Source of the DNA: a bacterium
GTDB taxonomy: Bacteria; Chloroflexota; Chloroflexia; Chloroflexales; Kallotenuaceae
Direction: 5' to 3'
Length of the DNA: 38,899 bases
Assembly: GCA_016781505.1 (NCBI GenBank)
Contig: JADDQF010000123.1
Coordinates: 1-38,899 of the forward strand
The position numbers and the translations under genes are program-made. Shown here one piece after another: positions 29,771 to 32,045 of the stretch. Position 1 is the stretch's first letter. Every line of letters starts with the position of its first letter. Under the pieces are notes generated by a model that saw only the letters and a program-made list of their open reading frames with translations, ran no database searches and was not told the origin of the DNA.

Positions 29771-30214
29771 ATGAGTGTCATGCCTACGTTCAGTAAACAA
29801 ACCGTTATCAGGTGGCTACCGGCCATTGCCTGGATGACATTAATCTTCTGGTTCTCGGCGCAGCCTGATTTGCCTAAGCCGCCGAGCGCGCTGTTAAATA
29901 TGATACTGCGCAAGAGCGCGCACTTCAGCGAGTACGGCGTGCTGGCGCTCTGTTACCTGTATGGATTAGGAGATCGTCGGCCCTGGCATCGGTGGCTGGC
30001 GCTGCTGCTGGCCATCCTCTACGCCATCAGCGACGAGTATCATCAATCGTGGACGCCCAACCGCTATCCGTCGGCGATTGATGTGCTGATCGATACAGCT
30101 GGCGCGCTCACGGCCGTTGGGCTATGGCACCGCTTTGAGCAGCACGTTATTGTAGGAAAAGCTCGAAGTTGGGCTGCTGGTTTCGGCCAAGCAAGTGGCG
30201 AAAAGCGCGCTTAA
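29771..30214 (+). CDS. VanZ-like membrane protein
   Basis: A 147-aa protein with about four hydrophobic helices. The VanZ family pattern is clear: IAWMTLIFWFSAQP, LRKSAHFSEYGVLALCYLYG and SDEYHQSWTPNRYPSAIDVLIDTAGA, with the conserved H-x-x-EY and D-E-x-x-Q residues. VanZ of enterococci gives low-level teicoplanin resistance; the general biochemical role is unknown. ATG 29771 or 29780 may be the start; neither has a strong ribosome-binding site. Its 3' end overlaps the convergent 63-aa gene by 68 bases. Confidence 0.88.
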   Translation: MSVMPTFSKQTVIRWLPAIAWMTLIFWFSAQPDLPKPPSALLNMILRKSAHFSEYGVLALCYLYGLGDRRPWHRWLALLLAILYAISDEYHQSWTPNRYPSAIDVLIDTAGALTAVGLWHRFEQHVIVGKARSWAAGFGQASGEKRA

Positions 30215-30338
30215 GCCCATCGACAGCTTCGTCGCCAAGCCAGAAACTGATCAACGCCCCAACGACGAGGCCCAAAGCACTGCCGGTCGCAGCACCGAGC
30301 GCAAACAGGACGTAGCGATCTCGTGCGGTGGCCTCCAT
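30147..30338 (-). CDS. Small membrane protein of unknown function
   Basis: A 63-aa protein with one long hydrophobic helix (YVLFALGAATGSALGLVVGALISFWLG) and an amphipathic basic C-terminus. AAGGAAGT lies six bases before ATG 30338. It resembles small YtxH-type gas-vesicle/stress membrane proteins in layout but not enough to name it. It follows rsfS on the same strand by 13 bases, so it is probably its operon partner. Its end is antisense to the end of vanZ. Confidence 0.65.
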   Translation of the reverse strand: MEATARDRYVLFALGAATGSALGLVVGALISFWLGDEAVDGLKRAFRHLLGRNQQPNFELFLQ

Positions 30339-30351
30339 GAACGTACTTCCT

Positions 30352-30696
30352 TTACTGAACGACAACCACGGGCTGGGCTTGCTTCCATAACCGCTCGATC
30401 CGGTAAAACTCGCGCTGCTCAGGCGAAAAAACATGCACAATCACGTCGCTGAAATCCATCAGCACCCAGCCGGTCTCCGGCGAGCCCTCGATCCGTGGCT
30501 GGCGGGCGCCGCCTTTGACCAGCTCCTCATCTATCGCACTGGTAACCGCGCGTAGCTGACGCTCGCTTTCCGCGGTACAGACAACAAAATAATCCGCGAT
30601 TGTGGTCAAACCACGCAGGTCGAGCATCACAATATCGTGCGCCTGCTTATCTTCGGCCAGGGTTACCGCGCGGCGGGCAAGTGTTGCAGGTTCGAT
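30352..30696 (-). CDS. rsfS: Ribosome silencing factor RsfS with apparent AUC start
   Basis: RsfS (YbeB/Iojap) binds ribosomal protein uL14 and blocks subunit joining in starved cells. The family blocks are present: AEDKQAHDIVMLDLRGLTTIADYFVVCTAESERQL, then GWVLMDFSDVIVHVFSPEQREFYRIERLW. The first ATG (30630) would cut off the conserved AEDKxAxDIV segment. Extending the frame upstream gives 22 more residues, I-EPATLARRAVTLAEDKQAHDIV, and a normal length of 114. At that point an ATC codon (30696-30694) sits eight bases after a perfect AGGAGG (30710-30705). No ATG, GTG or TTG exists in frame between the upstream stop and the conserved region. Confidence 0.85.
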   Translation of the reverse strand: MEPATLARRAVTLAEDKQAHDIVMLDLRGLTTIADYFVVCTAESERQLRAVTSAIDEELVKGGARQPRIEGSPETGWVLMDFSDVIVHVFSPEQREFYRIERLWKQAQPVVVVQ

Positions 30697-30736
30697 AGTT
30701 CGTTCCTCCTACCATCATAAACGTCAAAAAGACGCG

Positions 30737-30785: not shown

Positions 30786-31976
30786 CTAGATCAGGCGCAG
30801 CTCGCGCCCGACGTGCTCAAAGATATTGAGCGCTTCTTCCAAATCGGTCCGGGTATGCGCCGCCGTAACAATCGTGCGGACGCGGCCTTTGTCGCGCGCT
30901 ACGGTTGGAAAAGCGATGCCTTGGGCAAATACGCCGTTCGCGAAGAGTCGGTCCGAGAACTGCATGGCTTTTGCCCCTTCGCCGACGATAACCGGAGTGA
31001 TCGGCGTTTCGGAGATGCCCGTGTTAAAGCCCAGCTCTTGCAGCGCCTGCTTGAAAAAGCGCGTATGCTCCCACATGCGCTCGATCAGCGCCTGGCCTTC
31101 CGCACTTTGCAGCAGCTCCAGCGCGGCGATACAGGTGGCTGTGACCGACGGTGGATGGGCCGTTGAAAACAGGAACGGTCGGGCGCGATGCTCCATCAGC
31201 TCGCGCAGCCCCTGCGAGCAGGCCACATAGCCGCCCACTGCGCCGATCGCTTTGGATAGCGTGCCAATCGATATATCCCAGACCTTTTCTAGTCCAAAGT
31301 GATGCACCGTGCCGCTGCCATGCGGGCCTAGCACGCCCGACGCATGCGCATCGTCCACCATCGTGATCGCGCCAAAGGCCTGGGCGAGCTCGGCAATGCG
31401 CGGCAGCGGCGCAATATCGCCGTCCATGGAAAAGACACCATCGGTCACGATCAGAGTGTTGCGATACTGGCCGCGCGTCGCCTCCAGCACGCGCTCCAAA
31501 TCGTCTGTATCATTGTGCTTGTACACCTTACGGGCCGCTTTCGTCAGCCGAATACCGTCGATGATCGACGCATGGTTAAGCTCGTCCGAGATCACCAGAT
31601 CGCCATCGGCCAGGATCGGTCCAAGCGCCGCCGCGTTAGCGGTAAAACCGCTCTGCAAGACCAGCGTCGCCTCGGTGTGCTTGAACGCTGCCAGCTTCTG
31701 TTCAAGCTCTTCATGAATGTCCATCGTGCCGATGATGGTTCGCACGGCTCCTGCGCCGACGCCGTACTTGTCGATCGCGGCTTTGGCTGCTTCCCGCAGC
31801 TTGGGATGGGTGGTGAGGCCAAGGTAGTTGTTGGACGACAGGTTGATCACCTCCCGCCCGTCGATGGTGGCGCGCGGCCCCTGCTCGCCACCCAAGATGC
31901 GCAGCTTGCGATACAGCCCCTGCTCTTTGAGCTCTTGCAGCTGCGCCTGGACAAATGCATCAAATGCCTTGGACAT
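30786..31976 (-). CDS. kbl: Glycine C-acetyltransferase (2-amino-3-ketobutyrate CoA ligase)
   Basis: A 396-aa PLP enzyme of the alpha-oxoamine synthase family. It cleaves 2-amino-3-ketobutyrate with CoA to glycine and acetyl-CoA, the second step of threonine breakdown. Visible marks are [13 protein letters not shown], the substrate loop [15 protein letters not shown], the PLP-Asp region [16 protein letters not shown] and the Schiff-base Lys in [18 protein letters not shown] 31976 has GGAG upstream. It follows tdh by 69 bases on the same strand, and this pairing supports kbl over the related bioF or hemA. Confidence 0.95.
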
Positions 31977-32045
31977 GGTTGTCTCCGTATAACGACTGTC
32001 GGTTCCCAGGCAGCGAGCTGCACCCATAGCCGATTGGGCTACACA

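Follow-up and report, generated by a model that had tools for sequence, protein, structure and literature searches.

In Escherichia coli, infC, which encodes initiation factor IF3, has a start codon of the AUU/AUC/AUA type and is under autogenous control, and conservation of a near-cognate start codon across a whole phylum has until now been a hallmark of this gene. The rsfS gene analysed here resembles infC in its codon class, its strong Shine-Dalgarno sequence and its deep conservation. The two differ in that the infC product is itself the discriminator of start codons, whereas the control proposed for rsfS would act in trans, and in that CUG is common in rsfS and not in infC. Conserved, expression-limiting near-cognate starts with extended Shine-Dalgarno sequences, like that of rsfS, are also found in pcnB (AUU) of E. 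coli and in ccpN (AUA) and cvfC1 (AUU) of Staphylococcus aureus (PMC13009471), but these are other genes in other lineages, and their products are not ribosome anti-association factors. The rsfS gene of E. coli (ybeB) belongs to the same family as the Chloroflexota genes and likewise has a weak start, but that start is UUG (PMC10917681; TTG in the sequence that we read), one of the canonical codons, which escape rejection by IF3. Near-cognate starts are already known from infC, pcnB and ccpN, and rsfS adds to these an unusual depth of conservation and a suggestive partner. We did not find an rsfS gene with a near-cognate start described in the open-access literature; an arXiv survey of non-AUG-preferring genes that lay outside this search (2008.10758, cited in PMC9845219) may touch on the topic.

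The rsfS start site in the window

The window, that is, the whole stretch of 38,899 nucleotides that was analysed, carries rsfS on its minus strand at 30352-30696, as a coding sequence of 114 codons that runs from an AUC codon (30694-30696) to a TAA stop codon (30352-30354). The minus-strand start region reads ttATGATGG-TAG-GAG-GAA-CGA-ACT-ATC-GAA-CCT-GCA. A Shine-Dalgarno sequence, AGGAGG (30710-30705; anti-Shine-Dalgarno duplex energy -10.2 kcal/mol), is followed by 8 bases (30704-30697) and then by ATC, directly after which the conserved RsfS N-terminus begins (GAA CCT GCA ACA CTT GCC). An in-frame TAG (30711-30709) lies five codons upstream of ATC, separated from it only by GAG GAA CGA ACT, and rules out any start farther upstream. 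From this stop there was no ATG, GTG or TTG in frame up to a GTG at codon 23 (30628-30630), which is the sole start that a mechanical ORF caller can give to rsfS and the use of which would drop the conserved, selected N-terminus. A sequence-only reading of this DNA had placed the ATC eight bases behind a perfect AGGAGG and had seen no canonical codon between the upstream stop and the conserved N-terminus, and our reading of the minus strand agrees on both points.

Translation from the codon next to ATC onward gives a protein that was identified as RsfS (RsfA, YbeB) by a full-length match to TIGR00090 at 113.8 bits (cut-off 56.9; profile positions 2-99 of 99) and a match to PF02410 at 114.9 bits (cut-off 21.6). 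The gene is single-copy in its own 4.18 Mb assembly. RsfS homologues of S. aureus and E. coli bind uL14 and block subunit joining (PMC13246957).

To compare substitutions, we aligned rsfS from eight f1 and f2 species and analysed codons 2-22 separately from codons 23-108; family and genus codes, here and below, are those of the search tool. In codons 2-22, pS was 0.4-0.9, near saturation, and pN was 0.04-0.32, and the same regime was observed in codons 23-108. The stretch from ATC to GTG is under purifying selection and is therefore translated; with an in-frame stop so close before it, initiation must take place at a near-cognate codon. On these sequence grounds, the assignment of AUC as the rsfS start codon here is solid.

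Several other features surround this site. Upstream of rsfS lies a gene of the PLP-dependent aminotransferase fold (30786-32027, minus strand; PF00155, 218 bits), whose product is probably a glycine C-acetyltransferase, the sub-family name being taken from a reading of the sequence. Two tandem ATGs at 30718 and 30715 (30718-30713, minus strand) lie out of frame with rsfS and begin an ORF of 23 codons, which overlaps the start of rsfS. Just 3' of rsfS, about 68 bases are shared by a 63-residue ORF for a putative membrane protein (30147-30338, minus strand) and by the 3' end of a VanZ-family gene that converges on it (29771-30214, plus strand). A scan of the window for further ORFs lacking a canonical start yielded matches mostly in non-coding frames.

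Conservation of the start codon class

Among 60 relatives searched, rsfS was recovered in 58. In genomes of the same genus and the same family, the aligned rsfS start codon was ATC in four cases and ATT in one, each behind its own Shine-Dalgarno sequence, and bases -60 to -21 were diverged, identity there being down to roughly 10-40% for almost every pair. The start codon has been kept although the upstream flanks have diverged, and neither chance nor a local error accounts for it. The sequence-only reading had named an ATG or GTG at this position in close relatives as one of the observations that would speak against it; ATC or ATT was found instead.

In the rest of the order, most f1, f2 and f4 genomes had ATC at this position, and genera g6, g13 and g15 had ATA. 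In genera g7 and g11, CTG and ATC stand side by side immediately after AAGGAGG, at distances of 5 and 8 bases from it. This pair was seen before rsfS in L019, L020, L021, L024, L027 and L028, and L032, recorded as Roseiflexus, carries the g7-type start sequence. Genus g5 is the only user of ATG for rsfS within the order, and its Shine-Dalgarno sequences are weak (-5.6 to -5.9 kcal/mol), which makes this genus a natural comparison of codon with Shine-Dalgarno strength. The g5 loci with ATG are L104-L106, L108, L110 and L112-L115; infC stays ATA where it was checked.

We then read 137 rsfS start regions, comprising 57 from the order, 20 from the class and 60 from a wider sample of the phylum, under a uniform rule by which all ATG/GTG/TTG and CTG/ATT/ATC/ATA codons from the upstream in-frame stop to the conserved sixth residue were recorded and their Shine-Dalgarno matches scored. 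No canonical start was present between the stop and the conserved domain in 31 of the 137 loci, drawn from 19 families, and 29 of these 31 have ATC (14), CTG (13) or ATA (2) at the aligned codon. The best Shine-Dalgarno sequence precedes a near-cognate codon in 62 further loci and a canonical codon in 27, with 17 loci not assignable. About a fifth of the Chloroflexota loci thus look canonical, several of them with an N-terminal extension.

The near-cognate codons observed at rsfS in the phylum were ATC, ATA, ATT and CTG, and CTG is the usual start codon beyond the class. Examples are TGA-AAC-CTG immediately behind GAGG (L075), TAA-ACA-GGA-GTA-TCC-GGT-CTG (L063) and TGA-ATT-CTA-GGA-GGA-AAT-ACT-CTG (L121), and family f24 seemingly uses GTG or an adjacent CTG. 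As in infC, the rsfS start is a codon other than AUG, GUG or UUG with no canonical in-frame alternative, the codon class is kept in relatives, and a Shine-Dalgarno sequence lies 5-9 bases away. Judged from these alignments, the near-cognate start of rsfS is a deep trait, order-wide as AUC, AUA or AUU and phylum-wide as one of AUC, AUA, AUU or CUG, and one of these four codons appears to begin rsfS in most of Chloroflexota. The AUC start that the sequence-only reading had proposed is strongly supported; what that reading took for a peculiarity of this genome's rsfS is a deep lineage trait.

Outside Chloroflexota, samples from the phyla of L055 (recorded as Polyangiaceae) and L053 (recorded as Nitrospirae) contained rsfS regions without a canonical codon that offered ATA or CTG, as judged by eye, the Shine-Dalgarno scoring rule having been applied to Chloroflexota loci only. 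Two of them read GAGGAGGTCCCA-ATA (L283) and AGGAGGAAAAAGGACG-ATA (L293), and the other near-cognate regions without a canonical codon in these phyla are those of L291, L298, L303 and L311. These observations suggest that near-cognate rsfS starts arose repeatedly across phyla. A near-cognate codon was also seen in the rsfS start region of L315 from these samples, where most such regions showed no canonical alternative.

Comparison with other genes showed that this codon use is not general. As a positive control, infC starts with ATA in the genome under study (AGGAGA-ACAGCC-ATA; L158, contig C67, about 22400), and with ATA, ATC or ATT in 53 of 59 loci from the order and from deep CTG-type genomes, the remainder being five uncalled loci and one GTG. 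An infC ATA behind AGGAGA was also observed in the nearest relatives (L163, L165 and L169), and in all of these genomes a canonical gene caller would misplace the start. The negative controls were canonical: frr in 30/30 loci (24 ATG, 5 GTG, 1 TTG) and hpf/yfiA, by inspection, in 18/18 (ATG or GTG). In a simple motif scan beside infC, rpmI had ATG in 26 of 27 loci and rplT in all 8. Near-cognate starts were confined to infC and rsfS among the six genes examined, and the frr, hpf, rpmI and rplT controls rule out general near-cognate start use in these genomes. Shine-Dalgarno strength did not differ significantly between near-cognate rsfS and frr (median -10.2 vs -8.85 kcal/mol, p = 0.20).

IF3 and alternative explanations of the start codon

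Only AUG, GUG and UUG escape discrimination by IF3, and other start codons are rejected (reviewed in PMC4611024). Loss of rimM in E. coli raises both IF3 and RsfS, and each occupies its subunit and acts as an anti-association factor (PMC13246957). Because IF3 discriminates against exactly the codons found at rsfS, and because RsfS, like IF3, is a subunit anti-association factor, the reading to which we incline is that rsfS does start at AUC, that selection maintains this codon as a member of the IF3-discriminated class, and that rsfS output is thereby under the control of IF3.

Under this model, the AUC of rsfS would be read by the ordinary initiator tRNA, aided by the strong Shine-Dalgarno sequence, and selection would keep the codon inside the IF3-discriminated set (AUC, AUA, AUU, CUG) and away from AUG, GUG and UUG. 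IF3 would reject 30S complexes formed on such codons, so that rsfS would be poorly translated as long as IF3 is abundant in relation to 30S subunits. A drop in free IF3, caused for instance by its titration by many or immature 30S subunits, would release rsfS and would likewise de-repress infC, whose start codon in these genomes is of the same class. IF3 on the 30S subunit and RsfS on the 50S subunit, both of which prevent 30S-50S joining, would in this way rise and fall together. The codon set, the sharing of its class by infC and its absence from two other translation genes lend new circumstantial support to the tie between rsfS synthesis and initiation-factor levels that the sequence-only reading had proposed, and make a link to IF3 plausible; we infer that the IF3 level is what is sensed and that the coupling is of consequence to the cell. 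Against the link stand genus g5, in which rsfS has ATG with a weak Shine-Dalgarno sequence while infC keeps ATA, so that a low level of expression may count for more than the identity of the codon, and the canonical appearance of about a fifth of Chloroflexota rsfS loci. The UUG of E. coli rsfS is tolerated by IF3, and the joint rise of IF3 and RsfS in that species must therefore arise otherwise.

The main rival to the IF3 link accepts the AUC start as real but sees in it a constant brake: an excess of RsfS would be harmful, a poor codon combined with a strong Shine-Dalgarno sequence would hold its level low, and IF3 would carry no signal. This explanation is possible, though we consider it the less probable of the two. 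It agrees with genus g5, where ATC is exchanged for ATG with a weak Shine-Dalgarno sequence as if total strength were conserved, with the UUG or similar weak canonical starts of rsfS in E. coli and in Deltaproteobacteria/Binatia loci, and with the finding that non-canonical starts in S. aureus give about 10% of AUG expression (PMC13009471). However, a weak Shine-Dalgarno sequence with AUG or GUG, or a UUG or GUG start, would do equally well as a brake, and the codons are nearly confined to the IF3-discriminated set in at least 19 families, with strong Shine-Dalgarno sequences and with the same class in infC. A plain brake does not readily account for the rarity of codons outside this set.

Two further explanations, which deny the AUC start, are very improbable. 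Initiation at a canonical codon upstream and out of frame followed by a frameshift into rsfS, or else a wrong base call, might be suggested by the two ATGs just upstream of AGGAGG in the window, but this ATGATG is not conserved, being absent from the same-genus relative L002 and from others, which rules it out as a leader. ATC stands behind its own Shine-Dalgarno sequence in many independent assemblies, several of the relatives with a near-cognate rsfS start being single-contig genomes (for example L023 and L017, with ATC), so that a sequencing error or frameshift at ATC is ruled out as well; the frameshift that the sequence-only reading had itself raised as an alternative is not needed by the rsfS reading frame. 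Production of RsfS from GTG 30630 with the upstream part untranslated, for which it speaks that no canonical start precedes this GTG in the frame, is scarcely credible, and is ruled out by selection on codons 2-22, which are constrained like the rest of the gene, and by the match to the RsfS profile from position 2.

Possible meaning of a shared start codon class

More tentatively than the IF3 link itself, infC and rsfS may form a two-gene translational regulon that senses initiation fidelity, in which IF3 represses both genes through the start codon alone, and which would be ancestral in Chloroflexota and have re-arisen in other phyla.

Gene callers limited to ATG, GTG and TTG would cut 22 residues off rsfS here, or would miss the gene elsewhere in Chloroflexota. 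With rsfS, a second translation factor has a near-cognate start conserved across the depth of a phylum, and RsfS does on the 50S subunit what IF3 does on the 30S subunit. Taken together with rsfS, infC is no longer an isolated autoregulatory curiosity but may be part of a circuit that controls the joining of the subunits. If infC and rsfS do form such a regulon, the supply of both subunit-separating proteins would track the amount of free 30S subunits relative to IF3.
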